From: a virus
Reading direction: 5' to 3' (one strand)
Virus record (IMG/VR): IMGVR_UViG_3300046163_000066
Coordinates: 1 to 64,000 of that record
DNA length: 64,000 nucleotides
Shown here: in pieces, positions 8,573 to 58,351 of the stretch
Layout: the number at the start of each line of letters is the position of its first letter
How positions within the stretch are numbered: position 1 is the stretch's first letter
The notes under the pieces: generated by a model
Databases searched by the model: none
Told to the model about the DNA's origin: nothing
Seen by the model: only the letters and a program-made list of their open reading frames with translations
Translations under genes and position numbers: made by a program

Positions 8573-9900
8573 GCAGAGTGTTGCCACCGTTGCCAGATGA
8601 AACCACTACAAAGTCAAAGTCGTATGAAATTAACACCCTTTTGGATTGGTTGAACGAAGGAGACCGATTGATTATCAACAACCGCTATCAACGTGGTGAA
8701 GTAGGTCAATACAAACCACAGTTTAGGACCCGCTTGATTGAAAGTATCATTCGAGGATTTCCATTACCAAGTTTGTTGGTGATGCAAAAGAAAGGTCAAG
8801 CCGATGAATTGATTGATGGTCAGCAAAGGCTTCGGACTATTGAAGCATTTATCAATGGAAACTTTGCGATTGAAGGAAAACATTTGTTGATGTTGGATGC
8901 TACATCCTATGATGCTCTCAAGTATTCTGAAATGGATGCAGACCACAAAGACCGCATTAAGCGTGATTATGAAATGAGTGTCAATTACATTGACGATTCT
9001 ATGCCCGATTGGATGGTTTATGTTTTGATTAACGCAGGTCAAAATCCTTTAACGGCTGCCGAACTTCGGAAGGCTATGTTTGCGGAATATGAAAGTTACT
9101 GGCTCATTGATGAGTTCGCTAAAAGTCCTGAATGGACACGATATTTTGCTCAAGGTGCTTTGGCTCGTGAGAAAGGCACAGAAATGTTGTGTCGGGGTTT
9201 GATGAGTATGCTTTATGGAACACAACACGGCCAGATGTCGTCGAAACTTTGGTTGGAGACTAATCTAAAAACCGCTTTTAGCACTCTGAGTGTAAGTGAC
9301 GTTGAATCTTTGGTGTCAGATTTCAAAAAGACTATGAAACTTAGTCGAGAGATTCTGGGCGAAAACCCGTTCCGTCGGAATAACTTGTTCTCAGGAAGGG
9401 TCACGAAAGTTTCTAAGACCATGATTGAACCAGTAGCGTATGTGTTCTCAAACCTTCGCAAGAAATACAGTAATGCAAAGTTGATTGAAAGGCAAACCGA
9501 ATTGGTTTCGGCTTGGGATGAGTTTATGAGTTTTCAAAATGACGGTGCTGAACGATATTTGGGAGGAAACAATCCTGAAAAATGGGTGCAACGGAACGTA
9601 GAATGTTTGGAAATCATGGAAAGCGTCATGTCTGGAAGTCGAAAGCGAAGAGGTTCTGAAAGTTCCATTCCGTTGGAACTTCGGATTCAGGTCTTAGAGC
9701 AACATCGGAAAGAGAATGCAACCATTGATTGTTCCATTTGTGGCAATCAGTTGAAAGATGAAATTACGATTGACCACATTGTTTCGGTTGCAGACGGTGG
9801 CGAAACTATTTTGGAGAATCTTCAGCCAGCACACAGAGCGTGTAATTCATCGAAACATTCACGGTCTGAAGTCAGAGTATTTGCAGCGGAGGAAGAGTGA
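8569..9900 (+). CDS. DUF262-HNH nuclease (GmrSD-like)
   Basis: 443 residues. The N-terminal DUF262 domain (about 1-250) has its hallmark DGQQR at 83-87, preceded by the NRYQRGEV strand; in GmrS-type proteins this ParB-like fold uses NTPs. The C-terminus (about 388-432) is a compact HNH endonuclease with CSIC, DHI and AHRACN, that is two cysteine pairs around the catalytic His. Related proteins are restriction enzymes acting on modified DNA or phage defence proteins. On this element it could exclude rival viruses or attack host DNA. The last residues VFAAEEE resemble the [FM]-x-A-E motif of the polyproteins. The start at 8569 is coupled to the microprotein before it. Confidence 0.85.
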   Translation: MSRVLPPLPDETTTKSKSYEINTLLDWLNEGDRLIINNRYQRGEVGQYKPQFRTRLIESIIRGFPLPSLLVMQKKGQADELIDGQQRLRTIEAFINGNFAIEGKHLLMLDATSYDALKYSEMDADHKDRIKRDYEMSVNYIDDSMPDWMVYVLINAGQNPLTAAELRKAMFAEYESYWLIDEFAKSPEWTRYFAQGALAREKGTEMLCRGLMSMLYGTQHGQMSSKLWLETNLKTAFSTLSVSDVESLVSDFKKTMKLSREILGENPFRRNNLFSGRVTKVSKTMIEPVAYVFSNLRKKYSNAKLIERQTELVSAWDEFMSFQNDGAERYLGGNNPEKWVQRNVECLEIMESVMSGSRKRRGSESSIPLELRIQVLEQHRKENATIDCSICGNQLKDEITIDHIVSVADGGETILENLQPAHRACNSSKHSRSEVRVFAAEEE

Positions 9901-21906: not shown

Positions 21907-21937
21907 TGTATGTATGACAAATAGCGGAAGTGACAAC

Positions 21938-22903
21938 ATGAGAGATGAAAATTGGAAAGAAGAACAACTTGATGATGACCGACCCTGCGAAGATTGCGGG
22001 TCGAAGAACTGGGAACTCAATGATGCCAGAGGGGAACGCTCTTGTGGTGATTGTGGCTTGGTTCGCCATGAATACGAAATTGATATGGGCAAGGATTGGC
22101 GAGTCTTTTCTGACGGAGAAGGCACAGGCAACGAGCGAGCAGGTATGCCTCAAACTAACTTGTTGCACGACAAAGGTTTGACTACGGACATGGGATGGCA
22201 AAACAAAGACTATTCGGGTGCTGCAATTTCTGGTGACGCTGCCAAGCGTATGAATCGGCTACGTCGTCAGCACGCTCGAACTCGTGTCCGAAACTCTACG
22301 GAACGAAACCTTGTGTTGGCTTTGGGTGAACTTGACCGATTGGCAGGTAACATGGGATTGCCAACTTCAATTCGTGAAGAAGCCGCTTACATTTACCGCA
22401 AGGCTGTGGAAGCCAAGTTGGTTCGTGGTCGCAGTATTGAAGGCATGGTAGCCGCCGCTATTTACACGGCTTGCCGATTGGGTGCTAATGCTCGCACACT
22501 TGATGAAATCGGAAGTTTCTCAAAGACAGGTCGCAAAGAGATTGGTCGAACCAGTCGAGCATTGGTCAAGGAACTTCGACTTCGTGTGCCTCCCGCTATG
22601 CCGAGAGAATACATTCCTCGGTTCTGCACCGATTTGAGTTTGCCTGTTAAGGTGCAAAGTCGTGCGCTTCAATTGTTGGCCGATACCGAAGACCACGATG
22701 CTTTGGCTGGTCGTGGACCCACAGGAATTGCCGCAGCCAGTATTTACTTGGCAGGTATTCTGGAAGATAACCGTCGCACTCAACGAGAAGTTGCTGATGT
22801 GGCTGGTGTGACCGAAGTTACCATCCGTAATCGTTTCAAAGAAATGTGTGGTGTCTTGGGATTGAACCCTGAAAGCCCTGCGGATTCTAAAACTTCCGAG
22901 TGA
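21938..22903 (+). CDS. tfb: Transcription initiation factor B (TFB)
   Basis: 321 residues from the ATG at 21938 (GGAAGTGA six bases upstream); 21914 is an alternative. TFB bridges TBP-bound TATA DNA and RNA polymerase. The N-terminal zinc ribbon is complete (C17, C20, C36, C39), followed by the B-reader segment with DWRVFSDGE, and then two cyclin-like repeats (about 115-205 and 210-310) with GRSIEGMVAAAIYTACR and GRGPTGIAAASIYLAG. Both repeats end in a helix-turn-helix (second: TQREVADVAGVTEVTIRNRF). Nothing is missing, so it should work as a real TFB and could redirect host polymerase to the element's own promoters. Confidence 0.95.
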   Translation: MRDENWKEEQLDDDRPCEDCGSKNWELNDARGERSCGDCGLVRHEYEIDMGKDWRVFSDGEGTGNERAGMPQTNLLHDKGLTTDMGWQNKDYSGAAISGDAAKRMNRLRRQHARTRVRNSTERNLVLALGELDRLAGNMGLPTSIREEAAYIYRKAVEAKLVRGRSIEGMVAAAIYTACRLGANARTLDEIGSFSKTGRKEIGRTSRALVKELRLRVPPAMPREYIPRFCTDLSLPVKVQSRALQLLADTEDHDALAGRGPTGIAAASIYLAGILEDNRRTQREVADVAGVTEVTIRNRFKEMCGVLGLNPESPADSKTSE

Positions 22904-35766: not shown

Positions 35767-36738
35767 ATGAACAACCTTAGAGACTTCCCGTTTCCTAAAC
35801 CTGACCTTGCGAAACCAGACTTGCAGAAAAGAGTAGGCGATGTGCCGGGTATGTATTTGGGGAAGCCTTCAATTATCTTTAAGAATCCAGATGATTTCGT
35901 TATCCAAATGAAATATGACGGTATTCGTGGACTCTTGGGATTCGACTCATCAGGAAAGTATGTGATGGTTAGTCGTAATAACAACGTTTTGGGGTCTCCG
36001 AATATCAAACACATTGTTGATTTCAGAGGTTCGGCGGGAGATAAGTTTCCCAAAGGTGTCGTTTTAGACGGTGAAGTTTATTCAGATGAGGTGGGTAAAG
36101 GAAAAGCGTTTGCAGATTTTAACGAAATGGGTGGCGTGGTGCGTCGAGAGTCGTCGTATGACCCTCGTGCCGAGTTGATGTATTTCGTCATTTTTGATGC
36201 TTACTTCCCTGATGAACCTGATTTGGTTTATAGCGAGCGTATGAATCGTATTCTGAAGTATCACAGTCGAATGACTCCTGCTAATCGCAAGTTGTTCCGA
36301 GTGGTTGAACCCGTAGCATCCAGCAAACTAAAACTTCCTCGTGGTTCAAGTGTGGTAAATACTTTGGAATCCGCCCTTGAATACGCAGAAAATGAAGGCT
36401 TTGAAGGAATTATGCTTCGTAACCTACGTTTGCCTTACATGGTTGGTAAAGCGGGCAATAGCCTTTACAAATTGAAGTCCTTTTTCGATGATGAGTTTGA
36501 GGTTGTCGGTTGGGAAGAGGCTCAAAAGAAAGATGCTGGCACTCCAGTTTGGATTTGTATTACACCCGAAGGTAAAACTTTCAAAGCAAGACCTCTCGGA
36601 ACTTTGGAAGCACGAAAAAAGTTGTGGAAAAATCGACATGATTATTTGGGCAAGGATTTGACGGTCAGGTATCAAGAACTCGATAAAGACGGCACACCCC
36701 GATTCGGAACAGGTGTAGCCTTCCGTGATTACGAATGA
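35767..36738 (+). CDS. lig: ATP-dependent DNA ligase
   Basis: 323 residues, ATG at 35767 exactly 30 bases after TTTAAATAG. The AMP-accepting lysine is K49 in MKYDGIRG. Further motifs: DGEVY (III), VIFDAYF (IIIa), EGIMLRN (IV) and YKLKSF (V). The C-terminal 90 residues form the OB domain. It lacks the N-terminal DNA-binding domain of cellular archaeal ligases, so it is the compact viral type. It seals nicks left in replication and repair. The 3' end overlaps the convergent kinase gene by ten bases. Confidence 0.92.
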   Translation: MNNLRDFPFPKPDLAKPDLQKRVGDVPGMYLGKPSIIFKNPDDFVIQMKYDGIRGLLGFDSSGKYVMVSRNNNVLGSPNIKHIVDFRGSAGDKFPKGVVLDGEVYSDEVGKGKAFADFNEMGGVVRRESSYDPRAELMYFVIFDAYFPDEPDLVYSERMNRILKYHSRMTPANRKLFRVVEPVASSKLKLPRGSSVVNTLESALEYAENEGFEGIMLRNLRLPYMVGKAGNSLYKLKSFFDDEFEVVGWEEAQKKDAGTPVWICITPEGKTFKARPLGTLEARKKLWKNRHDYLGKDLTVRYQELDKDGTPRFGTGVAFRDYE

Positions 36739-38228
36739 CCTTCATCTAAGTAAATGCTCCAAGTCATCTCGAAGTCATCAAGTCCGTAGCCTTCTCTAAG
36801 AATGGCATTGACTTCATCACGGCTTCGACCATCATACAGAGCCTCATAGTGTATCAGACTTGTAGGTGGGTTGAACTCAGGAAGATAACGCCTTCCGGTT
36901 CGAGCGTGGATTCGATGTGGTGTTCCTCTTTCGGCAGCACGGTTCAATTTGGTATGTTTTCGCACCCATTTGTAACAGGCTTGTGTAGCCATCTTAATGT
37001 TGCCTTTGCCTGAGTTCAAAATAAGGTCTCTAATCAACTCTTGCTCAACATAAGCAAGTTCAATCATGTCGTATTGAAGGTCGTTGTCAATCATTTCTTT
37101 CCGAGCCGCAGGGTCATTGATTGCCCGAAACAAAGTCGTCGTCATAGGCACGATAACTTCCTGTAAAGTGAAATCCTTTTCAACAAGGTCAAAAATTGGA
37201 GAGATGGGTCCAGCGTTGTAAGGGCGATAACCTGTTTCGCCAAACCAAAGTTCACTAAACTCATAGTCCCAGAAATCTACAAAGTTTTTCCAAACTTGTT
37301 TAAGAACTTTGGAACAAGCCTCATTCATTTGATTAACGAGTTCTTCTTGGTTTTCTATCCAATTGAGGGCAGCAACATATTGAGGATATTTGGTAATATC
37401 TACACCGGGCAATTCCCATTCGATTAACTGTTCTAAGTTTTCGTGTTCATCAAACGATTCACCAAGAACTTCCTGAAGTTCTGCGAAAGTTGTAATTTTC
37501 TGAGGGAGTGTCTCTTCTTCGGATTGCATAATGGCTTGTCCGTGATACCAGTTGAAATAATCTCCAGATTCTAAAGCACGTTCTACGGTGACCAAATCAT
37601 TACCGAAAGTTCCGGTAAAAGCGTCTAAAAGTTGCTGATTAGAATTGTCCACAGGCCACGGAGCCACAACTGGGTCGAAGAAAACTTGAGAGCCATCGGA
37701 ACGGAAACCAAAGTTTTCAGGATTGCGAATGTCTCGAACCACGAAACCTTGTGACAACAAGTATCTAAGTAAATCTTGGTAATCAGAGTTCTCTAAGGGC
37801 GAAAGTTTGGACCCGTCGTATTTCTCACAGTAGTCGTTAGCGTCGGTGCAAGGAATGGCTTCCATTTCCCAGATAGCATACGGTTGTCCGGTTCGGAACT
37901 CACGCAGTAAGTCATCTATCTCATCATCCCAATCGAAATCTTCAGAACTGGTAATCAACTGTCGGCGTAGGCTGGGGTCAATAGTTCCTTGAACAAATGA
38001 ATAAACTTTCGGTAACGAGGCAGGTTGGTTTCCTGATAAGGCCAATCGTTCAAACAATTCGGCTTGCATCAAATTGACAGCGTATAACTTTCGGTTAAGG
38101 CTTCTAACTGGATACTCTGACAAGTTTCGCTTGGGTAAAGCCACTAACTTGTAGTAATGTTTCGGATTGTCCATGTTTTGAAAGACATATCCTGCTTGTC
38201 CAGCACCGATGAGCCTACCGAATCTCAT
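36729..38228 (-). CDS. Protein kinase-like protein
   Basis: 499 residues. The N-terminal 200 follow the eukaryotic-like kinase plan: Gly-rich loop GAGQAGYV (8-15), K27, a hinge at YAIWEMEAI (about 117-125), catalytic loop VVRDIRNPENFG with D166 and N169, and FFDP with D185 in place of DFG. The remaining 300 residues are mostly helical with an Arg-rich patch near the end (AERGTPHRIHARTGRRYLPE) and no known domain. Key catalytic residues are kept, so activity is plausible. The gene sits two bases behind the JAMM-like gene in one operon. Substrate unknown. Confidence 0.8.
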   Translation of the reverse strand: MRFGRLIGAGQAGYVFQNMDNPKHYYKLVALPKRNLSEYPVRSLNRKLYAVNLMQAELFERLALSGNQPASLPKVYSFVQGTIDPSLRRQLITSSEDFDWDDEIDDLLREFRTGQPYAIWEMEAIPCTDANDYCEKYDGSKLSPLENSDYQDLLRYLLSQGFVVRDIRNPENFGFRSDGSQVFFDPVVAPWPVDNSNQQLLDAFTGTFGNDLVTVERALESGDYFNWYHGQAIMQSEEETLPQKITTFAELQEVLGESFDEHENLEQLIEWELPGVDITKYPQYVAALNWIENQEELVNQMNEACSKVLKQVWKNFVDFWDYEFSELWFGETGYRPYNAGPISPIFDLVEKDFTLQEVIVPMTTTLFRAINDPAARKEMIDNDLQYDMIELAYVEQELIRDLILNSGKGNIKMATQACYKWVRKHTKLNRAAERGTPHRIHARTGRRYLPEFNPPTSLIHYEALYDGRSRDEVNAILREGYGLDDFEMTWSIYLDEGHS

Positions 38229-38230
38229 GT

Positions 38231-39040
38231 TTAATACTTCCAGAACTTGTCTCGGTCATCAATTACTTCTACTTCTGCACCGAAAGTTCCTTCTGAGCGT
38301 TGGCTGTTCCACCACACTAATCCAACTAATCCAACCGTAATCAAACCAGCACTTGCCAGATTACGGATTAGTAAGTTTTCAGATTTGAAAGCAACGGCTC
38401 CAGATGAGGGTCCTTCTAAATCCACGATGCCCATGTATCCCATTTCTCCGAGTGCATCTTGTAAAGCAAACCAATCTACACCTGCTTGATTGACTAAACT
38501 TCCGTCGGCAGCGTTGGTGTTTTGACCTGTTTCACGAGTAATTGCCATAACATCCACACCGGGGTTGCTACGAGACATGGCTTCAATCAATCCTTGTCGG
38601 TTAGGGAAAATCAAAGTTCTAACTCGATTGTGGATAACTTTGCGACCTGTTTTGGTGTCCAACTGTTGATGAGGATAAACCAAAAATTGCACCACTCGTT
38701 CATCGGTGTCTCGGCTGTTGATAAACTCGCCACAAATGTCGGTGGATGAAAAGTATTGACGACCTGTGTAAATCTTGCCGTCTTTGAGTGGGTGGCTGTG
38801 AATAGTCCACTTACGGTTGGTTAAACCATTTTTGACAGCATCTTGAGCCGCTTTAGTAGTAGGATTGACTTCGATACGAGATTCACTACCGAAACTGGGT
38901 TCACCGAGTTCATACTGTCCATCTTTTTCATAAACGTAGCACATCCATTCTCGTTCTTCGTGCGTGTTATCTGAATAAGTTTTCATGTCTTCTAAAGCAT
39001 CGGTAGAAAACATATTGAACTCTTTTTGCCATTCGCTCAC
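38231..39040 (-). CDS. JAMM/MPN-like protein with C-terminal membrane anchor
   Basis: 269 residues from a GTG at 39040 (GGTG site six bases upstream). Residues about 25-200 have a JAMM metalloprotease pattern: H81-S-H83-P and then SSTD at 98-101, with an acidic residue group near 28-32; the gap between HxH and SxxD is longer than usual. One membrane helix (about 225-243, SAGLITVGLVGLVWW) follows, then TFGAEVEV at about 252-259. JAMM enzymes cut isopeptide or peptide bonds, often of ubiquitin-like tags. Activity is uncertain because of the long gap. Coupled with the kinase-like gene. Confidence 0.65.
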   Translation of the reverse strand: MSEWQKEFNMFSTDALEDMKTYSDNTHEEREWMCYVYEKDGQYELGEPSFGSESRIEVNPTTKAAQDAVKNGLTNRKWTIHSHPLKDGKIYTGRQYFSSTDICGEFINSRDTDERVVQFLVYPHQQLDTKTGRKVIHNRVRTLIFPNRQGLIEAMSRSNPGVDVMAITRETGQNTNAADGSLVNQAGVDWFALQDALGEMGYMGIVDLEGPSSGAVAFKSENLLIRNLASAGLITVGLVGLVWWNSQRSEGTFGAEVEVIDDRDKFWKY

Positions 39041-43770: not shown

Positions 43771-45492
43771 ATGTTGCCGATTCCTAATGAAATAGTGGAG
43801 TTTGTCTCCGATACTGTGAAAGGTTATCGAAACATCAACGCTGACATCGGTAAGATTTACGCCGCCAAAATTGCGAATCCAACTCTGTTGAGTGGTTCGG
43901 GCGTTTGTCTCAAGATGGAAGAGGGTCCTTTGAATCCTAAGAAACCTGTGGCTAACGAATCAGTAATTCGATTCACGCTAAGTGACGGACAGTATTCTGT
44001 TGAATGCTTGGCTCACAACGGTCCTGAATTGGGTCGGTTAATGGGTTTGCATAGGATTGGTTGGAACGTGGATGGTTCTGATTGGTTGGGCGACGTGTTG
44101 ATGTTGCTAACTGAAAGTGTTCGTGACGGCAAGCAAGTGGAAGTCTCTGGTTACTATGAGATGTTCGGTCGAGACAAAGTTTTCGTAGTCAAAACGGTAA
44201 GACCTGCTGAAGCACGAACTGACAGTCAGATGACTGATGAACAGTTTGAAAGTTTCATTGAGTTGTGTCGTGACGCAGGACCCGGATACCGACCTTTGGA
44301 ATTGATGATTCGTGATGATACTCTGTGGTCTAAACTGTATGCCGACTTACCGATTAAGTATGCTACTATGCTATTCTGTCTCAGCCCACAATCGAAACAG
44401 GACATGATGCACATTGGCATTGTAAGTAGCATGGGTGAAGGTAAAGACCACTTGTTGGAAACCGTCATTGAACCGTTAGTGCCTTGTGGCGTAGCCTCAA
44501 CAGGAAAACTTTGCACGATTCCGGGGTTATTCGGAGCCATGAATGGTGAAGACTTGAACTCTATTGAACTCGGTCTGATTCCCAAGATGGATAACGAGCG
44601 TATTGCTGTTTCCGAGTTTCAAACATGGAGTCAAGAAGTATTCGGTGAACTGATGAATGTTTTGGCTAACGGCAGTTTCACGATGCAGAAAGGTCAAGTT
44701 GATACCAAACGAACTGCTCGAACCAATTTCTTGTTCTTAGGTAACCCGCCGAGAGACTGGAAGAAGGGTGATGAAAAGTTAGGTATGTTGGGTGCATTCG
44801 GTGAATACACGTATCAATTGATGAGCCGATTGACTTTGATTTTCGCCAGAATGTCGCTGACCGATGGTGATGATACTGATTATCTGATTGAAGACAAAAT
44901 CATGGACTCTATGAACGGAGTGTATAAAAAAGAAGACTTCAACGAAAACCTCAATATGTGGAGAATCTTTTTCCGTGAATACTTGCGATATGTTTCGGCT
45001 TTAGACCCTAACTACGACGGTTTGCGAAAACAGATTCGTGATACCATGAATCAAATTAAGGGCGACCCAGTATTCAAAGCGGCTTTCTTGGGTGGAGGTC
45101 GTGCAACTCGTGACTTCCGAAAGTTCCAAGAGTTTGTGAATCTGTGCAAAGGCTTTGCTCGATTGAATGGTGAACGAGAAGTTTCAGAAACAAGTTTGTG
45201 GCACTCTCACAAAATCTTCATGGAAAGCATGGCAACGCTGGAAGGTGATGCGGGATGGAAACACATTATCAACGGTGCAAATGAAAGAATCGCTATGCTG
45301 TATGGCAAGTTGTGGAATGAGAAGAAAGATGGTATTTACGAGTCATTGAAAGAGATGATGGACGTAGTGACGTTTAGTGAAAAAGAATGGGATGAGTTAG
45401 TCAATCTAAACTACATCAATCCGAATGGAAACAAGTTCAAAGGCAAATGGTCTTCGTGGGTTGAAATTATTGACCTTGATGCACAGCCTTAA
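43771..45492 (+). CDS. mcm: Divergent MCM-like replicative ATPase
   Basis: 573 residues. An N-terminal OB-like domain (about 1-150) is followed by an AAA+ domain (about 190-400) and a C-terminal winged-helix region. The Walker A is SSMGEGKDHLL (about 219-229), without the usual GDPGxAKS. Walker B is RIAVSEFQTW, with Ser where MCMs have Asp. The next helix, LMNVLANGSFTMQKGQ, and sensor 1 FLFLGNPP keep the MCM pattern, as does the arginine finger SRLTLIF. It would be the hexameric helicase of the element, but the altered Walker B makes ATP hydrolysis uncertain. It shares its promoter type with primase. Confidence 0.82.
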   Translation: MLPIPNEIVEFVSDTVKGYRNINADIGKIYAAKIANPTLLSGSGVCLKMEEGPLNPKKPVANESVIRFTLSDGQYSVECLAHNGPELGRLMGLHRIGWNVDGSDWLGDVLMLLTESVRDGKQVEVSGYYEMFGRDKVFVVKTVRPAEARTDSQMTDEQFESFIELCRDAGPGYRPLELMIRDDTLWSKLYADLPIKYATMLFCLSPQSKQDMMHIGIVSSMGEGKDHLLETVIEPLVPCGVASTGKLCTIPGLFGAMNGEDLNSIELGLIPKMDNERIAVSEFQTWSQEVFGELMNVLANGSFTMQKGQVDTKRTARTNFLFLGNPPRDWKKGDEKLGMLGAFGEYTYQLMSRLTLIFARMSLTDGDDTDYLIEDKIMDSMNGVYKKEDFNENLNMWRIFFREYLRYVSALDPNYDGLRKQIRDTMNQIKGDPVFKAAFLGGGRATRDFRKFQEFVNLCKGFARLNGEREVSETSLWHSHKIFMESMATLEGDAGWKHIINGANERIAMLYGKLWNEKKDGIYESLKEMMDVVTFSEKEWDELVNLNYINPNGNKFKGKWSSWVEIIDLDAQP

Positions 45493-47142: not shown

Positions 47143-47188
47143 GATTCAGGCCCACAACTTTAAATAGGTGCTTGACTGTAATCAAAAC

Positions 47189-47989
47189 ATGAGGCTTCGT
47201 AACGTAATCGGATTGTTTGACGGGATTTCATGTGGACAAATGGCTTTGAAGAAGGCTGGAATCGAGTATGACCAGTATTATGCTTCCGAAATTGACAAGT
47301 ATGCGATGAAAGTTACGCAACAACAGTTTCCCAACACAATTCAATTAGGGTCCGTAACTGATTGGGAATCATGGGAATCACCCTTCTTCCATATTGATAA
47401 TGTTGATTTGGTGATGGGTGGAAGCCCGTGTCAAGGATTTTCGTTGGCAGGTAAGCAATTAAACTTTGATGACCCACGAAGCAGTTTGTTCTTTGAGTTC
47501 TTAGCCATTGTTAAACATTTCAAACCTAAGTATTTCCTATTGGAAAATGTAAAAATGAGGCAAGATATTCAAGATGCTATCTCGAAAGAACTGGGTGTTG
47601 AACCTATTCTTATCAATTCTAATTTGGTGTCGGCTCAGAACCGACGAAGGCTTTATTGGACTAACATCCCTAATGTGAAACTTCCCGATGACCGAGGTAT
47701 TACTTTGGAATCAATTCTGGAAATCCCTGCGGAAAAGGGTATTACCGTTAGACCCAAGAGTAAATGTCTTCGAGTAGGTGGCCGTCAAAGTTATGACCGA
47801 CATGAATGGGACAGTATTGATAACACGCACTCACGAAAACTAACGGTGTTGGAGTGTGAACGCCTTCAAACATTACCTGATGGCTACACCGAAGGTATTT
47901 CCAATACTCAACGATACAAAACTCTCGGAAACGGGTGGACTGTGGACGTTATTGCACACATCTTTGAACACATGGAGGACTCACCTTGA
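47189..47989 (+). CDS. DNA (cytosine-5) methyltransferase 1 of 3
   Basis: 266 residues, ATG at 47189, 30 bases after TTTAAATAGG. SAM-binding motif I is GLFDGISCGQ (7-16); the catalytic Cys is in GGSPCQGFS (about 77-85); motif VI is LLENVK, motif VIII AQNRRRLYW, motif X GNGWTVDVI. The target-recognition region between VIII and IX is short. It methylates C5 of cytosine in a defined sequence. First of three tandem paralogues, with no matching restriction gene beside them, so the set probably protects the element's DNA or alters its binding properties. Confidence 0.93.
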   Translation: MRLRNVIGLFDGISCGQMALKKAGIEYDQYYASEIDKYAMKVTQQQFPNTIQLGSVTDWESWESPFFHIDNVDLVMGGSPCQGFSLAGKQLNFDDPRSSLFFEFLAIVKHFKPKYFLLENVKMRQDIQDAISKELGVEPILINSNLVSAQNRRRLYWTNIPNVKLPDDRGITLESILEIPAEKGITVRPKSKCLRVGGRQSYDRHEWDSIDNTHSRKLTVLECERLQTLPDGYTEGISNTQRYKTLGNGWTVDVIAHIFEHMEDSP

Positions 47990-48882
47990 GACTTAGAAAT
48001 GTTCTGGGATTATTCGATGGAATAAGTTGTGGACAACTGGCCTTGCACCGAGCAGGTATTAAGTTCGATAACTACTACGCCAGCGAAATTGACAAATATC
48101 CGATTAGCGTTACTCAAAGGAACTTTCCCGAAACTATTCAATTGGGCAACATTCTCGATTGGGAATCATGGGATTTAGAAAACATTGATTTGATTATGGG
48201 CGGAAGTCCGTGTCAAGGATTTTCATTAGCAGGTCAAAGATTGAACTTTGATGATGACCGCAGTAAGTTGTTTTTTGAGTTTGTGAAAATCATTAAACAT
48301 TACAAACCAAAATACTGGCTACTCGAAAATGTCAAAATGCGAAAAGATGTTGAGGAAGCAATCAGTTCGGAACTCGGTGTTGAACCCATTCTTATCAATT
48401 CTGGGTTGGTTTCGGCTCAAAGCAGAGACCGCTTGTATTGGACTAACATCCCCGACATAACTTTGCCAGAGGACAAAAAGATTTACCTGAACAGTATTTT
48501 GGAAACTTTGCCTGAGTCTGAAATCAGAGGTGGAAACTTGACAGAATACTTCAAACACAAAGAAGGGAAACTTTCACCCAGAGGGCTGTGCCACATTGGA
48601 ACTGCTGACTTGAAAGGTATTGACTCTTTGAAAAGGGTGTATCATCCCGACGGCAAATCTCCAACATTGACAACCAGCATGGGTGGGCATCGTGAATCGA
48701 AAGTTTCAACGAGTGAAACCACTTGGAGAAAGGTTACTCCGTTAGAATGTGAACGATTACAAACTTTGCCTGATGGCTACACCGATAATCTCAGTAATAC
48801 TCAAAGATACAAAGCCATAGGTAATGGCTGGACTGTGGACATTATCGCCCACATCTTTGAACACATGGAGGACTCAGAATGA
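47986..48882 (+). CDS. DNA (cytosine-5) methyltransferase 2 of 3
   Basis: 298 residues from a TTG at 47986 that overlaps the stop of the first enzyme as TTGA; GGAGG lies 11 bases upstream. Same motifs (GLFDGISCGQ, GGSPCQGFS, LLENVK, AQSRDRLYW, GNGWTVDII). About 30 residues longer than its neighbour in the target-recognition region (SEIRGGNLTEYF to HRESKVST), so a different recognition sequence is likely. Motif VIII has Ser for the usual Asn (QSR). Confidence 0.93.
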   Translation: MRLRNVLGLFDGISCGQLALHRAGIKFDNYYASEIDKYPISVTQRNFPETIQLGNILDWESWDLENIDLIMGGSPCQGFSLAGQRLNFDDDRSKLFFEFVKIIKHYKPKYWLLENVKMRKDVEEAISSELGVEPILINSGLVSAQSRDRLYWTNIPDITLPEDKKIYLNSILETLPESEIRGGNLTEYFKHKEGKLSPRGLCHIGTADLKGIDSLKRVYHPDGKSPTLTTSMGGHRESKVSTSETTWRKVTPLECERLQTLPDGYTDNLSNTQRYKAIGNGWTVDIIAHIFEHMEDSE

Positions 48883-49821: not shown

Positions 49822-50292
49822 ATGGATGAACAAACACAGATTTTAATTGGACTCGGCGGATTGGCTATTACAGCGATTGGTGGCTGGTGGCTCAAGAACC
49901 GTGGTAACGCAGTTACCAAGATTGCAGACAAACTTGAAGATGTGGTCGAAGATTTGACAGGCAAAGACATTGAACTTGATGATGTGGTCTCGGATGTTAT
50001 GGATTCTGTGGAAGATGTAGTCGAAGAGGCTTCGGAAGAAGTCATGGAGGCTCTGGAAGAAGGAGAAAGCGTTTCGGAAGCACTTGAAGAAGTGGCCGAC
50101 GACGTGGTTGCCGATGTAGCCGATGCTGTGGATGACCTACAAGACCGCCTTTCTGGTCTCAAGGTTGCAGAACTCAAAGAACTACTCAAGTCAGCAGGGT
50201 TGCCTGTGTCTGGAAACAAGTTGCAGTTGATTGACCGACTCACAAAGGGTCTCGACAACAAGCATCTGTTGGATGTTCTAAAAGGAAATTGA
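49822..50292 (+). CDS. Membrane-anchored acidic protein with SAP domain
   Basis: 156 residues, ATG at 49822 after CAGGTGATACAGA; promoter TTTATATGGGTGCTA at 49772. One N-terminal membrane helix (IGLGGLAITAIGGWWL, 8-23), a long acidic coiled stretch (about 35-110), then a SAP motif (LKVAELKELLKSAGLPVSGN and the second helix, about 112-145). SAP domains bind DNA. The protein could tie DNA to the membrane. The acidic middle may form a stalk. Confidence 0.75.
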   Translation: MDEQTQILIGLGGLAITAIGGWWLKNRGNAVTKIADKLEDVVEDLTGKDIELDDVVSDVMDSVEDVVEEASEEVMEALEEGESVSEALEEVADDVVADVADAVDDLQDRLSGLKVAELKELLKSAGLPVSGNKLQLIDRLTKGLDNKHLLDVLKGN

Positions 50293-50612: not shown

Positions 50613-50644
50613 GCTTTAAGTAGTTGAACCGCCAAATGAAACCT

Positions 50645-52618
50645 ATGGCTGGTTATGTTGCTATTTCTGAATCAGAAATGTCTGATTTTATGAATGCTAT
50701 CGGCTTTACCGAATTGTCGGTGGAACAACGAGGCAGTTTTGGGCGCAGACCTATCAAGGAACGTGTGTATGAAACGCCTGTTGGGGCTGGCAGAATCCGT
50801 GTTTATTCCAGCGTGGTTGGACCTACTACCAGAGACCGTGGCAAAGATGCTATTCGGGTTCAGTATTGGGTCGGAGACCAGAAAGTTTATGGTGCCAAAA
50901 GAGTGCATCGAACACAAAACTGGCGTAAGAACCTGTTGCAGCGAACCGAAGAGATTCGAGAAAGTGCGGAGTCAGGACCCTTGAGTCGGATTCCAAAAGA
51001 CAGTCGTGGTGACTTAATGACCGCCCGAAGGGGTCGGTTAGCCCATGAACGATTCTGGGGTAGTGTGAACTATCCAGAACTTCGTGAATCCAGACGTTTT
51101 GAAGCCGTTTCTGTGTTACCACGAGGACTCAAGACTGACAAGATTACTGACAGAGTGATGGCAATTCAATACATGATGGATGACAGCGAAAAGCAACAGA
51201 AACTTTTGAAGTTGCAGACGGCTCTCAAAATGGGTTTGATTACTGAAGATGAGATTTTGGAGTCATTAGAACGAGCCATGAGTATGAACGCTGAATCCAA
51301 TGTGGAACGCAAGACTGAAAAGGAAGAACTCATTTTAGAACATTTGAACAATAATCGACAAACCAGCAAATACGATGGAAAGTTAGAGAACACCGAAGGT
51401 GGCATTGTCGAATTACTGGGAATTACTCGTTCAGGAGTTTCAAGAACTCTCAGAAACATGGAGTCTAAAGGTTTGATTTACGCTCGAAACTTACACGTCC
51501 CCGGCGGTCGTAGAAAGGTTCAATGTTGGTATGTGGTTGGTTCAGGAACTGACCGTGGATTTGGTGCTGAAGGCGAAGAACTTGTTTCTTGTCCCAAATG
51601 TGGTTATGAACCATCTATTGAGTATGAGTTAGGTGATGCTTACTGCTACACTTGCGAAGTCAAAGTTTATGGACAAGATGTTTCGGAACACAATGATTGT
51701 GATTTAAAAATCATGGATGAAGACGCAATTAACGAAGAGTATGACTTTTGGTTATACGAAAATCACCCAGATTTTTGTCCTGCTGGTTGGAATCCAGACG
51801 AAGATTTTGAAGCCGAAAGTTTCAAACCTCCTGCTTCAGCAATTGCGGCTGCCAAAAAAGGATTAGCCCAACGTAAGAAATGGGGTCGTGGTGGGCTGAG
51901 TCCTGCCGAAGCCAAATCACAGGGTATTGATTCTGGAGTAACTCGTGCCAGAAAAATTGCTTCTGGAAAAGTTTCAAAGCATGATGTTCGTCGAATGTCT
52001 GCTTTCAACCGACATCGAAAGAATAACCGACCTGAAAAGAAAATGCCAGATGGTGGACCCACAGCCGGAACTATTGCTTGGAATCTTTGGGGCGGAACTT
52101 CTGGTGTGAACTGGGCTAAGAAAAAGTCAGCAAACATGAATGCTGAAGAACAAGGATGTGGATGCAAAAATTACACACCCGATTTCAACCGTGAAAGACC
52201 AATGCTAACAGATGATGACGAACAAGCCGTTATCGTTCCGATTACTTGTGATGATTGCGGAAATAAAGGAGAAACGGTGTATCTTCATGGCTACAACGAA
52301 TATGACGATTCTAATCTAAAATGGTTTGATGCTGAAGCCTCTGATTCTTACGACAACTTGGCACATCAAGATGAGATGGCACAAGAGGCTTACGAAGAGT
52401 ATGTTGAAGAGTTAGACCCTGAAACAGATTACCCACCGATGTCTTTTGAAGAATGGTATGAACAAACAATGGCTATTTATGACACTCCAGAATACGACCA
52501 GTATTTAGAACAACAATACCTTCAGATGCAAGAAGATGCAAAAGAACTGGCTCGATTGGAAGCATTAGAAAAGAATGCTGAGTCTGAAGATTACGGCGTA
52601 GAACCACGTTGGATGTGA
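50645..52618 (+). CDS. Polyprotein-like protein with [FM]-x-A-E spaced domains
   Basis: 657 residues; TTTAAGTAGTTG at 50615 sets the ATG at 50645. Unlike modules are joined by a short motif: MNAES, FGAEG, FEAES, MNAEE, FDAEA and KNAES (at 51284, 51560, 51806, 52136, 52325 and 52571). Modules in order: an N-terminal domain (1-213), a winged helix (about 220-300), a zinc ribbon (CPKCG to CYTCE), a Lys/Arg-rich helical module with VRRMSAFNRHRKN and AGTIAWNLWGG that resembles a domain of phage head or protease proteins, a second zinc module (CGCK, CDDCG), and an acidic helical end. The motif may mark cleavage sites. Only the resemblance of the fourth module gives a structural hint. Confidence 0.7.
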   Translation: MAGYVAISESEMSDFMNAIGFTELSVEQRGSFGRRPIKERVYETPVGAGRIRVYSSVVGPTTRDRGKDAIRVQYWVGDQKVYGAKRVHRTQNWRKNLLQRTEEIRESAESGPLSRIPKDSRGDLMTARRGRLAHERFWGSVNYPELRESRRFEAVSVLPRGLKTDKITDRVMAIQYMMDDSEKQQKLLKLQTALKMGLITEDEILESLERAMSMNAESNVERKTEKEELILEHLNNNRQTSKYDGKLENTEGGIVELLGITRSGVSRTLRNMESKGLIYARNLHVPGGRRKVQCWYVVGSGTDRGFGAEGEELVSCPKCGYEPSIEYELGDAYCYTCEVKVYGQDVSEHNDCDLKIMDEDAINEEYDFWLYENHPDFCPAGWNPDEDFEAESFKPPASAIAAAKKGLAQRKKWGRGGLSPAEAKSQGIDSGVTRARKIASGKVSKHDVRRMSAFNRHRKNNRPEKKMPDGGPTAGTIAWNLWGGTSGVNWAKKKSANMNAEEQGCGCKNYTPDFNRERPMLTDDDEQAVIVPITCDDCGNKGETVYLHGYNEYDDSNLKWFDAEASDSYDNLAHQDEMAQEAYEEYVEELDPETDYPPMSFEEWYEQTMAIYDTPEYDQYLEQQYLQMQEDAKELARLEALEKNAESEDYGVEPRWM

Positions 52619-52622
52619 GGCT

Positions 52623-54749
52623 ATGAGGGCTTTTGAGAATTGTTTAGTTTGCGGTGCTTCAACCGAAAATACTCATTCGGCACGTCGAGGTGCTGATGCT
52701 TTGGTTTGTGGTAGTCAATGTTACAGACAGGCTTCTCGAAACTTTAAGCGAAATATGAGTGGATACAAAGTGGCTCGTCTTGTTGATTTGTTGGCTCAGA
52801 TGGGCGAACCAGTAACCGCAGCAGAATTGTTAGGCCGTTATCGTGAAACTTACGGTCGTTCTGGTCAATTGACTATTGGAAATAGTGTGGCTCTTACTTC
52901 ACAATTGGTGCCGATTGTTAATCCTGAAACTATTCGGGTTGATAAAAGCAAGAAACCATTTACGTTTGAGTATGTGGGTGGAACAACCATTGGTGAATGG
53001 CTGAAACCCAGTATGCGTGCTAAATATGAATCCGTAAGTTTTAGGTCTGAAGCCTCCTACAAAAATCTTGGTGAATATGCACCCACCGAAAGGATTATCC
53101 AACGGTTAAAGGATTCAGGCGTTTGGGAACTTGGGAACACATACGAAGATGACGGTCTGCAATACATTTGGTGGGCGACTGTTAAAATTGAGGATGGAAC
53201 ATTGGTTCCTGCGTCTTTACCGGATGACTTCTTAGCAGAGGACTTGATTAAGTTAGTTCTGCTTATAGATGACCGAAGAGACCACCCAAAGTTGGGTAGA
53301 TTGGCTGTGTCCTATGACTTGGATGAATGGGAGGATGAAGACCTGACCCAACTTGGTAAAGAACTCACCATCATATTTGAAAATAATGGAATGTTTCAAT
53401 CGGATGACTTTTTGGAGTATGGAGGTATGGGTGATTATTTTGATGTGCATTGGGGTGATTTGGTTAATCACTCTTGCGCCGATAACGCAAAGTTTGACAT
53501 CTACGAAGAGGATGAAGGTCAAGGTCTCATCACTATGGAGTGTATGGAGTGTGGAAGAACGGCAACTTTCAGACAAGAAACTCCATACGAAGGACCCAGA
53601 AATGCTGAAACTTTTGGAGCAGAATCAGATTCTTATGAATGGGAATGGGACATGATTGAGTATGCACCCACCGAATTGATTAAGAAACGATTGAAGGATG
53701 CTGGATTTAGCATGACAAGCGTTGGAACAACATACAAGGACCAAATCGTCGAGTTTTACGAGCCACAACTGATAGCCCCAAACGGGGTTGTGTTGGAGGT
53801 CTGTTTGAGTCAAAACGAAGAGTTCAAGGGATTTTCAAGATTGACATTTTTTGAAGACGACCACTCTGGGGACGTGGGTAAGGTTCCTGACATAGACTGG
53901 AACAATTGGCATTGGAATGGACTGTTGAAGGGAGAAGATTGGGTGGAAAGCCCTCAAGGGGACTACTATCAGGTTTATTGGGAGGGATTATACGACGAAT
54001 GGAAACACGGACACAACTGCGCTGATAACGCAAAGTTTGACATCTACGAGGATAATCTCATCGTGATGGAATGTGTGGAGTGCGGAAGAACTGCAACCTT
54101 TGAACAAAAAACTCCATACGAAGGACCCAGAAATGCCGAAACTTTTGATGCTGAAGATGAACTTGATGTTTCAGTTGGTGACCGTGTTCGCAGTTATGAT
54201 TTTGTTCTTCCCGACGGAACTTTGATTCGAGATGATTGTTACATGGAAGGTCGAGTGACCAAGATTGCACCTGTGGATTGGTGTGGTGCAGAATGCGACC
54301 ATTATTACATTTTAGTGGACAAAATCGTTAGAAATGGAGAAGAACTTTCGGAACGTCTGCCCGGAGTAGATATGGTTTATCCTCCAGTTAGTGAAAGTTA
54401 CTTAGAGATTATTTCAAAACCAAGAAGTGGTAACATGGAAGAGATGGATGCTGAAACTGATGAATACAAAGGCCCTTTTGAAGTCGAAATCCGAAGGCCG
54501 AATGGTAGTAAAGCCAGTTGGAGGAAATATGAAAATTACCGACAACTGATTGATGCTTTGGAAGCGATTGTATCAAACCGTTACACGCCTTATGCCATTG
54601 ATGTTTTTGCGACAAATGTTCCTTACATTAGTGGTTTCACAGCGATGGGTCCTGTGACGGATTATCGAAAGTTTCATTTGGCGACATGGAAATATGGTAA
54701 TTGGGAATCTGGTCCTTGGGCTGAATACTTACCGAGTGGCGCAGAGTGA
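52623..54749 (+). CDS. Polyprotein-like protein with repeated domains
   Basis: 708 residues, ATG at 52623, four bases behind the previous gene. Residues 1-120 are a Zn-finger plus winged helix related to the products of 1813 and 20945 (CLVCG, CGSQCYRQ, then AAELLGRY). Then two copies of a roughly 170-residue domain (about 150-335 and 345-510), each starting EYAPTE and ending in a zinc-like CMECGRTATF segment and NAETFGAE or NAETFDAE. Two further modules end at MDAET and at the C-terminus, SGAE. So all junctions carry the same motif as the preceding protein. Function unknown; a virion or pre-head precursor is possible. Confidence 0.7.
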   Translation: MRAFENCLVCGASTENTHSARRGADALVCGSQCYRQASRNFKRNMSGYKVARLVDLLAQMGEPVTAAELLGRYRETYGRSGQLTIGNSVALTSQLVPIVNPETIRVDKSKKPFTFEYVGGTTIGEWLKPSMRAKYESVSFRSEASYKNLGEYAPTERIIQRLKDSGVWELGNTYEDDGLQYIWWATVKIEDGTLVPASLPDDFLAEDLIKLVLLIDDRRDHPKLGRLAVSYDLDEWEDEDLTQLGKELTIIFENNGMFQSDDFLEYGGMGDYFDVHWGDLVNHSCADNAKFDIYEEDEGQGLITMECMECGRTATFRQETPYEGPRNAETFGAESDSYEWEWDMIEYAPTELIKKRLKDAGFSMTSVGTTYKDQIVEFYEPQLIAPNGVVLEVCLSQNEEFKGFSRLTFFEDDHSGDVGKVPDIDWNNWHWNGLLKGEDWVESPQGDYYQVYWEGLYDEWKHGHNCADNAKFDIYEDNLIVMECVECGRTATFEQKTPYEGPRNAETFDAEDELDVSVGDRVRSYDFVLPDGTLIRDDCYMEGRVTKIAPVDWCGAECDHYYILVDKIVRNGEELSERLPGVDMVYPPVSESYLEIISKPRSGNMEEMDAETDEYKGPFEVEIRRPNGSKASWRKYENYRQLIDALEAIVSNRYTPYAIDVFATNVPYISGFTAMGPVTDYRKFHLATWKYGNWESGPWAEYLPSGAE
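53475..53624 (+). repeat. Intragenic duplication, copy 1
   Basis: This stretch and 54018-54155 are nearly identical at the DNA level over GATAACGCAAAGTTTGACAT, the CMECG/CVECG part and CCATACGAAGGACCCAGAAA. Copy 2 lacks about 12 bases. The high DNA identity, compared with the weaker protein likeness of the domain fronts, points to recent duplication or gene conversion. Confidence 0.8.
54018..54155 (+). repeat. Intragenic duplication, copy 2
   Basis: Second copy of 53475-53624, in frame and in the same orientation. It ends in the codons for TFDAE, where copy 1 encodes TFGAE. Confidence 0.8.
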
Positions 54750-54781
54750 AGTTTAAGTAAGTGCTTGTCCATATCCTAAAC

Positions 54782-57700
54782 ATGGACTACGAAGCGTATA
54801 TTGCTCGTTTAGAGGCGGAGTGTGCGGAAGCCTACGCTATTGTAGAACAAGCCAAAGCCAAAGGCTTAGACCCACGACTTTCCGTAGAGATTCCATTGGC
54901 TTCTGACCTTGCTGACCGAACTCAGAAACTTTTAGAGTTCTTACATCCTCGAAACACGGCTGCACAGATTCGAGAACTTACTCAAGAAAACGATGGCAAC
55001 CGTGAAATGGTAGCCATTCAGATTGCTCGTATTGTAGCGGCTGAAAGTTTAATTTACGGTGAGAACCAAAAATGCCCTGCGTGTAAGGGTTCAGGCAAGA
55101 ATGCTCAAGTATCTTGGAAAGAAGTGCCGTGTGAAAATTGTGAAGGCACAGGAAAAGTCATTGGCTTTGATTCAGAGGTCGTTGGTAAGGCAGACTGGAG
55201 AGATACTCTCAAGACGTATGAAACAGAGGCTCTAAAGGGGTCTATGGCGATTGGAGCCAGTCGGATGGCAACTTGTATGTATCATGGCATTTGCGCTGGT
55301 CTGGCGGTGCTTACAGAAGGTATTCTGGTGGCTCCGTTGGATGGAGTGGTTTCATGTCGAATTATTACGAATGCTGACGGTAGCGAATCGTTGGCGGTCA
55401 ATTATGCTGGTCCAATTCGGAGTGCGGGTGGAACTGGTCAAGCGTTGAGTGTTTTGATTGCAGATGTGCTACGTCGTGATTTCGGATTAAAGCCACCACA
55501 AGTGACGTTTAATGAAGTGGAACGCTACAAAGAAGAAGTTTCTAAATACAGTCGTGGATTACAATACCGACCCTCTAATCCTCAGTTAGAAGTTATTGCG
55601 GGCAATTGTCCTGTTTATGTTGATGGAGAAGGTGTAGGTGGAGAAGTGACAGGTCAGCGAGACCTTGAACGTGTGCCGACCAACAAAGTGCGAGAAGGAA
55701 TGTTGTTGGTTATGTGCGAAGGTTTGGTGTTGAAAGCCCCTAAGATTCTGAAGTATGTGGAACAATTGGAAATGGATGGTTGGGACTGGCTTCGAGATTT
55801 CGTCAAGACTGGTGGTAAATCGAAAACCATTGAACCCAGCGAAAAATACATGGCCGATGTTTTGGCTGGTCGCCCTATTTTTGGATTGCCGATGAAAGTT
55901 GGTGGTTTGAGACTACGATACGGGCGTAGCCGATTAGCAGGTCTGGCGACCACAGCGATGCACCCTGTTTCTATGATGGCTATTGGAGGTTTCGTTATTT
56001 GTGGCACACAAATGAAGTATGAACGGCCGGGTAAGGCAACGGTGGCTACGCCTTGTGATACCATACAAGGTCCGTATTTACAATTCAAAGATGGTTCTGG
56101 TAAGCGAATCAATTCAGAATCTGAAATGAAACTACGAGCAGGTCTTTCGGAAACAGATGGATGGTCGGTGTTGCCGACTGAACCTGATTGGCCGATTGAA
56201 AAGGTGTGGGACATTGGTGAACTGTTAGTGCCTGTGGGTGAGTTCTTAGAAAACAACCATCCGTTACCTCCGAGTCCTTATGTTCCAGAGTGGCATGACC
56301 AAGTTGTTCAAGAAGCAGGTTTGAAACCTGCCGAGAGTTTTGAAGAAGCATGGCGTATGTCGGAAACATACAAAGTGCCATTGGATGCACGTTATGTGCC
56401 TGTGGGTATTGATGATGTGCTAATGTCTGAAATCGGACCGATGCTGGCAAATATGGCTTTGACTCTGGGAAATAGTGTTCCAGTAGAGTATCGAGAATTG
56501 ATTTATCGTTTGAATGTGGACATTGATTCTGAAGGAGTCTTGCTGGGTGCTGAAGCCGGCTTAATTCTGAAAGTTCTGGAGAAAGTTTCCAGATGGGGTG
56601 GGGACAAATTGAATACTTTAAATACCCTCGACCAAAAATCTGCCAGAGAGTGGATTACCGAAACTTTTGGTGTGCAAGTTCGACCACGAACCACTCTTAG
56701 AATTGGAGCCAGAATGGGCAAGCCAGAAGGTTCAAAACATCGGGAAATGAATCCCAGCACACACGGGATTTGGCCGGTGGGAAGTAATGTCGGCACTAAG
56801 CGATTGATTTCAGATGCAGTTCGTAAGTCGGAAAAGTATTACACGGGTATTCGAGTGTGTCCAGAATGCAACCAGCAAACATGGCGAGGCGTTTGTGTGG
56901 GCGAAGAAAGTTCGCACCCACCGACGGAAACTAACTTTGTAGGGATGGTTAAACAAACGCTGGATGCTGAAGAATTATGGAAAGAAGCGATGGAGATTAC
57001 GCATCAAGCCGTAGAACCGAAAGTTAAGGGCAACAAAAGTCTTGGCTCTGGTGAAAAGATTCCAGAACATTTGCTCAAGGCCGTGCTGAGACAACGCAAC
57101 GGCACAAGTGCGTTTCGTGATGGCACGATTCGGTTTGACATGGTGGACATTACCATGACACATTTCAGACCTGATGAAATTGGTATCACCGCCGAACAAG
57201 CCAGAGAATTAGGCTACGATGTGGATTATCAAGGTCAGCCAGTTGTGGCCGATGACCAAGTTATTGAATTGATGCCTCAAGATGTGGTGGTAGCCGAAAA
57301 CTGCGTAGCACCGTTGCTGGCAGCCATGCGTTTTACCGATGATGCTTTGGTGACAATGTATGAGTTAGAGCCGTTTTATCGCTTAAAAGACGATGCTGGG
57401 GCTGAAGCCCTTGTAGGTCAGTTAATCATGGGGTTGGCACCTCACACCTCTGGTGCAGTTTTAGCAAGGATTATCGGCACAGCACCTGTTAAGGGTCATT
57501 ACGGGCATCCGTTTTATCACGCTGCTAAACGACGTAACTGTGACGGAGATATTGATTGTATTATGTTGCTAACCGAAGGACTACTCAATTTTAGTCGAAT
57601 GTTTTTGCCTAAAAATCGTGGTGGAAGAATGGATGCTCCGCTAACGCTAACGACACGCATCGTGGCTACGGAGATTGACAAGGAAGCCTTGAACACCGAT

Positions 57701-58351
57701 ATTTTGAATCAATACCCGTTGGATTTTTATGAGTTTCTGCGAACCGCCGAACAACCACCGGGACCCAAAGAAGCCTTGAAGCATGGGATTCGTATTGTCG
57801 AAACTTTGATTGATGAAGGCGTATTGCCTGTGGGTCAGATTGGATTTACACATGATACCACAGATTGTGGAGCAGGACCCCGTGATAACCCGTATAACAC
57901 ATTGGATTCAATGCGTCGGAAAACGATGGAACAGTTTGCACTTGGAGAAATCCTTGAATCAGTTGATAACATTGAGCAAGCCAGTAAGTTAATTGACAGA
58001 CACCTGATTCGAGACATGAGAGGTAATCTGAGGGCTTACGGACAACAGAAAGTTCGTTGCACCAAATGTGGAGAATCATACCGACGTGTGCCAGTTTCAG
58101 GAAAGTGTCGAACTCGATTAGATACCAGAAAAGACCGATTTACAGGCGAAACGGTGGACATTTACTGCCCCGGCAACTTGATTTTGACGGTCACGGAAGG
58201 CTCGGTGGCTAAATACGATGATTTGATGGCTACGTTGATTGAACGCTACGGTTGTAATGAATACATTTCAGGATTGTATAGCCAAGTCTCCAAGTGGGTT
58301 GGAGAAACTTTTGAATCACAAGAGTTGGGCAAACAGCAAAGTCTGTGGTGA
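54782..58351 (+). CDS. dp2: DNA polymerase D large subunit (DP2)
   Basis: 1189 residues, full length for the family; ATG at 54782, 30 bases after TTTAAGTAAGTG. DP2 is the catalytic subunit of the archaeal family D polymerase. Seen: the N-terminal family block with VEIPLASDLADR, a zinc motif (CPACKGSG, CENCEGTG, about 98-130), NYAGPIRSAGGTGQALSV, the KYSRGLQYRP block, the catalytic NCDGDID (two Asp, about 920) and NRGGRMDAPL, and a C-terminal Cys-rich region (CTKCGESY). No inserted intein is seen. The small subunit DP1 is not in the window. The gene would replicate the element, alone or with host DP1. Confidence 0.95.
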   Translation: MDYEAYIARLEAECAEAYAIVEQAKAKGLDPRLSVEIPLASDLADRTQKLLEFLHPRNTAAQIRELTQENDGNREMVAIQIARIVAAESLIYGENQKCPACKGSGKNAQVSWKEVPCENCEGTGKVIGFDSEVVGKADWRDTLKTYETEALKGSMAIGASRMATCMYHGICAGLAVLTEGILVAPLDGVVSCRIITNADGSESLAVNYAGPIRSAGGTGQALSVLIADVLRRDFGLKPPQVTFNEVERYKEEVSKYSRGLQYRPSNPQLEVIAGNCPVYVDGEGVGGEVTGQRDLERVPTNKVREGMLLVMCEGLVLKAPKILKYVEQLEMDGWDWLRDFVKTGGKSKTIEPSEKYMADVLAGRPIFGLPMKVGGLRLRYGRSRLAGLATTAMHPVSMMAIGGFVICGTQMKYERPGKATVATPCDTIQGPYLQFKDGSGKRINSESEMKLRAGLSETDGWSVLPTEPDWPIEKVWDIGELLVPVGEFLENNHPLPPSPYVPEWHDQVVQEAGLKPAESFEEAWRMSETYKVPLDARYVPVGIDDVLMSEIGPMLANMALTLGNSVPVEYRELIYRLNVDIDSEGVLLGAEAGLILKVLEKVSRWGGDKLNTLNTLDQKSAREWITETFGVQVRPRTTLRIGARMGKPEGSKHREMNPSTHGIWPVGSNVGTKRLISDAVRKSEKYYTGIRVCPECNQQTWRGVCVGEESSHPPTETNFVGMVKQTLDAEELWKEAMEITHQAVEPKVKGNKSLGSGEKIPEHLLKAVLRQRNGTSAFRDGTIRFDMVDITMTHFRPDEIGITAEQARELGYDVDYQGQPVVADDQVIELMPQDVVVAENCVAPLLAAMRFTDDALVTMYELEPFYRLKDDAGAEALVGQLIMGLAPHTSGAVLARIIGTAPVKGHYGHPFYHAAKRRNCDGDIDCIMLLTEGLLNFSRMFLPKNRGGRMDAPLTLTTRIVATEIDKEALNTDILNQYPLDFYEFLRTAEQPPGPKEALKHGIRIVETLIDEGVLPVGQIGFTHDTTDCGAGPRDNPYNTLDSMRRKTMEQFALGEILESVDNIEQASKLIDRHLIRDMRGNLRAYGQQKVRCTKCGESYRRVPVSGKCRTRLDTRKDRFTGETVDIYCPGNLILTVTEGSVAKYDDLMATLIERYGCNEYISGLYSQVSKWVGETFESQELGKQQSLW

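Follow-up and report, generated by a model that had tools for sequence, protein, structure and literature searches.

Glu-ended motifs border exchangeable cassettes in putative precursor polyproteins of a large, most likely archaeal, virus lineage

Glu-directed maturation is already known from tailed phages, and core polyproteins from large eukaryotic viruses. Among the former, T4 gp21 cuts at L/I-x-E; among the latter, African swine fever virus (ASFV) makes core proteins as the precursors pp220 and pp62, whose GG-x sites are cut by a Ulp1-type cysteine protease. In SPN3US, the identified cleavages by gp245 lie C-terminal to AXE (PMC10052503). Here we describe two adjacent polyprotein-like genes in the first 64,000 bases (the window) of the 166,176 bp virus record IMGVR_UViG_3300046163_000066 (G000), the rest of which was also read. 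Their unlike domains are separated by copies of a short motif, [FM]xAE. We consider it probable (roughly 0.75) that these genes encode precursor polyproteins of a large archaeal virus lineage, which would be cut after the motif Glu by a maturation protease.

By analogy, SPN3US gp245 is a close functional parallel. The SPN3US/phiKZ-like and T4 systems share with this locus a short Glu-ended motif, with cutting C-terminal to Glu there and predicted here, and they act on many head and ejection substrates. They differ in that here Ala precedes Glu and F, M or Y occupies P4, and in that their substrates mainly have one N-terminal propeptide, whereas here multi-cassette chains carry swapped domains in an apparently untailed virus whose record lacks a Peptidase_S78 match. 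ASFV is likewise a large DNA virus with a membrane (only predicted here) and core proteins made as precursors, but here the motif ends in Glu, the chains are shorter and more numerous, and the cassettes are mobile among genes. If the proposal is correct, the mechanism would resemble a known kind, and what is new would lie in the setting and perhaps in the protease. Large tailless-looking archaeal viruses with a cassette system would add a third setting for virion polyprotein processing. The motif would also predict the mature products, so that long genes which otherwise resist reading could be broken down into named small virion or entry proteins, and a clear, testable protease hypothesis follows from it.

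Both genes lie where the initial annotation had placed them (ORF 1 at 50624-52618, ORF 2 at 52623-54749). ORF 1 is open from a TTG start, and the ATG at 50645 preferred in that annotation agrees with the start of a relative's homologue. All ten motif copies listed before were recovered: eight fit [FM]xAE, and the other two, KNAE and the terminal SGAE, have neither F nor M in the first position. As had been claimed, the second protein terminates on the motif, SGAE being its final four residues. One junction had been missed, FRSE at 53040-53051, which opens the first duplicated unit of polyprotein 2, and an additional literal match, FLAE at 53229, sits within a domain and is probably due to chance. 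The description of the modules as unlike in kind also held: they comprise a MarR-like winged helix (a sub-threshold Pfam match), Cys-rich ribbons, a head-protein-like module and a tandem duplication of ~180 residues.

Searches of IMG/VR and phage records with the two polyproteins as queries returned zero matches because conservation is limited to single cassettes. Relatives were reached instead by using the packaging ATPase and capsid candidates as queries. The packaging ATPase of IMGVR_UViG_3300025132_000021 (G001; 160,342 bp) is 69% identical to that of G000, and that of PBOB01000001.1 (61,477 bp) is 51% identical. Two further records, IMGVR_UViG_3300027845_000169 (G003; 150,353 bp) and IMGVR_UViG_3300038530_004289 (G004; 123,396 bp), were found with the capsid candidates. 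These four and G000 make up the five-record set used below. PBOB01000001.1 is a viral contig filed under an Acidiferrobacteraceae bacterial metagenome-assembled genome; since it carries the terminal part of an archaeal-type PolD, this placement is probably a misbinning. No description of the virus group was found in the literature searched.

The motif is strongly over-represented. The two polyprotein genes contain nine [FM]xAE matches compared to 0.5 expected (at most 4 in 200 residue shuffles). The early genes of G000 (1-50 kb) show no excess (8 vs 5.4 expected), whereas its late genes, past 64 kb, contain 36 vs 10.7 expected (maximum of 21 in 200 shuffles). The excess is thus a genome-wide trait of late genes, exemplified in dense form by the two genes of the window. 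Observed and expected counts per record were 54 and 17.3 in G000, 47 and 17.8 in G001, 27 and 7.6 in PBOB01000001.1, 51 and 16.3 in G003, and 46 and 14.5 in G004, for a pooled ratio of 3.18 (225 vs 70.8). Pooled control patterns were mostly flat (reversed EA.[FM] 0.98, [FM].EA 1.15, [FM].GE 0.81, [FM].AD 1.3), and these controls together with the shuffles rule out chance composition as the source of the motif. Variant patterns were raised to differing degrees (Y.AE 2.1-fold, L.AE 1.8-fold, [FM].SE 1.3-fold), which suggests that the consensus is permissive, [FMYL]x[AS]E. AE.[FM] was elevated 2.3-fold, which we read as tandem motif forms such as AETFxAE.

Cross-genome BLAST revealed that the domains of both polyproteins are spread over different G001 genes. 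In polyprotein 1, the stretch lying exactly between FEAE and MNAE (residues 399-508) shares 86% identity with residues 10-119 of a G001 protein of 675 aa, in which MNAE occupies residues 116-119, and the homology stops exactly at Glu. The N-terminal 180 residues of polyprotein 1 have their counterpart in yet another G001 gene. In polyprotein 2, the module at residues 512-611 is flanked by FDAE and MDAE, with YTAE and MNAE in the corresponding positions in G001; 33 of 87 residues are identical, and the next module is unrelated. Across the five records, 12 of 240 internal C-terminal homology ends coincide, to within one residue, with the motif Glu in both of the proteins aligned, compared to 0.26 expected; this result was reached in none of 2000 randomisations, and three control patterns gave 0. 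Examples of such ends are SQSTSHNFTPFHAE continuing as VAYA vs SQSTSHNYTPMHAE continuing as DVGD, SDDIRAVVKQYRAE continuing as TFED vs PSGIAKKVAQYRAE continuing as IESK, and CGCGQDPCKTYGAE continuing as TFEA vs CGCGKDPCITYGAE continuing as PEYD. The first test of N-side borders gave 0, because alignments continue through the shared motif; a second, with a window picked after this null result, gave a weaker signal (7 vs 1.15 expected).

Duplications respect the same borders. Pairwise alignment recovered two that BLAST self-comparison had missed: the tandem duplication in polyprotein 2, running from FRSE to FGAE and then from FGAE to FDAE (score 309 vs a shuffle maximum of 64), and one in the gene at 72424-73863, from YGAE to MKAE and then from MKAE to MKAE. 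Modules that move between proteins include Cu/Zn SOD, DUF5872, zinc ribbons and the head-protein-like module. The Cu/Zn SOD domain follows LRAE within a 923 aa chain in G000 and is a separate gene in G004. This chain (151891-154662) also contains a C2H2 finger, a zinc ribbon, DUF5872 and a C-terminal HELGH metalloprotease-like domain.

Exchange at these borders could also arise if the motif were the mere joint of a domain-shuffling hotspot, with recombination at a short DNA repeat and no function in the protein. Domains do shuffle at the motif, as this idea predicts. However, motif Ala codons match background use (GCT 21, GCC 16, GCA 8, GCG 1), both Phe codons are in use, F, M and Y interchange at the first position in homologues, and synonymous variation is seen at the junctions; only Glu is slightly biased, with GAA a little above background. 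Background codon use combined with F/M/Y replacement indicates selection on the protein, and on these grounds the motif is a protein signal and no DNA joint. A repeated DNA element at the junctions is rejected on codon use, and we regard the recombination hypothesis as extremely unlikely.

A protein-level signal might instead remain uncut, acting as a short binding or packaging tag that ends each domain and lets the chain attach to a protein of the capsid, membrane or scaffold. Such a tag would account for a motif that works at the protein level and is restricted to late genes. Motif-bearing proteins more often have a hydrophobic segment, clearly so in two of the five records (10/28 vs 14/95 and 13/20 vs 8/49), which would also suit docking. 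Yet a single copy per chain would suffice for a tag, and as many as seven strict copies occur in one protein; a tag does not need homology to end exactly at Glu; and copies one residue apart, as in MNAETFEAE, suit cut sites better. We therefore judge the uncut tag to be unlikely.

Proteolytic processing better explains multiple copies per protein than does a lone address tag. Residues following Glu are near background except for a mild preference for T and F, so that constraint lies upstream only, as for a site that would be recognised at P4-P1. Placement at cassette C-ends, repetition, upstream constraint and the exact border of swaps and duplications together resemble a protease site with Glu at P1. 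In the proposed scheme, each cassette would end in [FMY]-x-[A/S]-E (weaker copies have L), which a maturation protease would recognise and cut C-terminal to Glu. A few genes would in this way yield many small proteins, among them zinc ribbons, likely DNA-binding modules, SOD and membrane-anchored pieces, released probably during particle assembly. Given the cassette types (the module fused elsewhere to likely head proteases, DUF5872, zinc fingers, SOD) and the hydrophobic anchor of some chains, the products may be particle or entry proteins.

The initial annotation had proposed a precursor cut at A-E. That precursor reading is strongly favoured by cassette exchange in five viruses, breaks exactly after Glu and the late-gene excess; from these patterns we infer the cutting, its position after Glu, the nature of the products as virion or entry proteins and the viral origin of the protease. 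In related contigs, the excess is found in all four relatives and homology ends at Glu. Weighing against processing as we propose it, among 113 comparisons of aligned homologues, a set that includes chance intra-domain copies, the motif was strict in 25, loose in 24 and absent in 64. Several further points count against it. When breaks near motifs were tested more loosely, they exceeded expectation only about two-fold; no motif-ended leader is evident in the capsid candidates; and we are aware of no virion proteomics for these viruses, cleavage itself being deduced from comparison. The protease candidate favoured below adds three more: it matches known folds weakly (best E 2e-3, none reaching E 1e-3), it was unmatched by the Prok-JAB profile, which did match controls, and to our knowledge no JAMM enzyme cuts after Ala-Glu.

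Table 1. Coordinates of cassettes and associated genes (positions in G000; those up to 64,000 lie in the window)
Feature	Position	Strand	Description
Cassette polyprotein 1	50645..52618	+	657 aa from ATG 50645; five [FM]xAE and KNAE
Cassette 1a	50645..51295	+	Ends MNAE 51284-51295; residues 11-183 resemble N-end of a different G001 protein (47% identity)
Cassette 1b	51296..51571	+	Winged helix; ends FGAE 51560-51571; MarR_2 E 1e-4, under curated cut-off
Cassette 1c	51572..51817	+	CxxC zinc-ribbon-like; ends FEAE 51806-51817; 35% identity to part of a 179 aa G001 protein
Cassette 1d	51818..52147	+	Head-protein-like module; ends MNAE 52136-52147; 86% identity to N-end of another G001 polyprotein
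Cassette 1e	52148..52336	+	Cys-rich; ends FDAE 52325-52336
Cassette 1f	52337..52615	+	Acidic tail containing KNAE 52571-52582
Cassette polyprotein 2	52623..54749	+	708 aa; last four residues SGAE 54735-54746
Cassette 2a	52623..53051	+	Ends FRSE 53040-53051
Cassette 2b	53052..53624	+	First copy of duplicated unit; ends FGAE 53613-53624
Cassette 2c	53625..54155	+	Second copy of duplicated unit; ends FDAE 54144-54155
Cassette 2d	54156..54455	+	Ends MDAE 54444-54455; G001 counterpart module flanked by YTAE and MNAE
Cassette 2e	54456..54746	+	Ends C-terminal SGAE
Adjoining two-part protein	36729..38228	-	First 237 residues end MQSE 37518-37529; exact end of G001 homology is at MEAE
JAMM-like metalloprotease candidate	38231..39040	-	Hydrophobic segment and FGAE 38273-38284; present in all four long records
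HerA-like packaging ATPase	93944-95233	-	Related to tailless SH1-type viruses
Four related capsid-protein candidates	78260-79673 and 65187-66646		Short; C-terminal signature DGPDxLI..LLE....WYKR invariant; weaker relatives at 114983-118334

The best candidate for the protease, unproven, is a membrane-anchored JAMM-like protein. Its copies in G001, G003 and G004 are 69%, 52% and 57% identical to the window copy, and Glu57, His81 and His83 (HxH), Ser98 and Asp101 are invariant in the four viruses, with spacing longer than in the usual JAMM motif. The most conserved stretch is WTIHxHPLKDGKIYTGRQYFSSTDI. An AF2 model (pLDDT 72, core blocks near 90) has as its best solved matches the JAMM enzymes BRCC36 and CSN5, alongside cytidine deaminases, and as its best named viral match a phage JAB protein (probability 0.99, E 2e-3). 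Self-processing proteases often contain their own recognition motif, and of the four viral versions of this protein three bear the motif, as FGAE close to the hydrophobic segment. The TFGAE previously reported after that segment is present, and FGAEVEV is retained in one relative.

The protease had been expected outside the window, and the JAMM-like protein lies inside it; the second choice, an HExxH protein at 99224-100564, lies outside. The HExxH protein occurs in four of the five records and is ranked lower because it was undetected in G004, the record with the strongest F-type excess. The C-terminal HELGH domain of the 923 aa chain was rejected as a candidate, being found only in the window's virus. 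A Peptidase_C48 profile search, for a Ulp1-type cysteine protease, gave no match in the controls.

The initial annotation had framed the motif in terms of tailed viruses and the T4 head protease. In that case, core and ejection proteins would be substrates of a T4- or HK97-type prohead protease acting at a Glu motif, much as in SPN3US and T4, and it is consistent with this idea that modules of the cassette 1d type occur in other viral contigs, from tailed phages, at the N-end of proteins that by eye resemble HK97-type prohead proteases. Profile searches with matched controls, however, found no Peptidase_S78 prohead protease in G000 and no large terminase by Terminase_6N in four records, although diverged forms may escape the latter profile; the Peptidase_S77 (T4-type) search lacked a working control, as the controls went unmatched too. 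The packaging ATPase, moreover, is like those of SH1-type viruses. Among phage records it matches only SH1, HHIV-2 and HCIV-1, and weakly (26% over 44%, E 4e-4). A low-confidence model of a capsid candidate (pLDDT 59) has fold matches mostly to viral jelly-rolls, SPV1 first (E 9e-3); the candidates do not align in sequence with SH1 VP4 and VP7. A tailed-virus head system is very unlikely and its frame finds no support here; the virion is likely tailless and membrane-containing, which is unproven.

Sphaerolipoviridae (SH1, HHIV-2, HCIV-1) resemble the present viruses in the packaging ATPase and, in G000, in capsid candidates present in several related copies. That group (Helvetiavirae) is marked by two single jelly-roll major capsid proteins; the related candidates in G000 number four. 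They differ in size, with genomes of ~31 kb (SH1 30.9 kb) against 166 kb here, approximately five times larger, and SH1 has no motif excess (0 vs 2.1 expected). Magroviruses (Magrovirales) are archaeal viruses of marine origin and rich in replication genes (PMC10768690), a likeness to G000. Magroviruses are head-tailed, whereas the tailed-virus profile searches here gave no match. A fuller picture can be drawn only tentatively and strikes us as less likely than not: tailless archaeal viruses, at least 166 kb in size and with an internal membrane, would carry particle cargo made as interchangeable polyprotein cassettes, which a JAMM protease anchored in the membrane would cut C-terminal to Glu. 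We know of no virus matured by an enzyme of the JAMM class.

The host is most likely an archaeon, as judged from the gene content of G000. Immediately downstream of the two polyprotein genes lies the PolD large subunit gene (54761-58351; identified by reading), which is present in all relatives, and G000 also codes for the PolD small subunit, MCM, TFIIB (TFB), TBP, ribonucleotide reductase and Cu/Zn SOD. TFIIB and MCM are encoded at 21914-22903 and 43771-45492 of the window, and TBP at 148369-148935 of the record.

Other features were observed in G000. Just 5' of the polyprotein genes, 49822-50292 encodes a small acidic protein with an N-terminal hydrophobic segment and a SAP domain. The adjacent gene pair at 47168-48882 is an apparent duplication, both members matching one G001 gene (55% and 85%). 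A GmrSD-like nuclease with an HNH domain (8548-9900) possibly has a role against other mobile elements. Finally, a single 1325 aa gene of G001 is represented at 100600-104464 by two overlapping ORFs, reflecting a frameshift, a sequencing error or a programmed shift.

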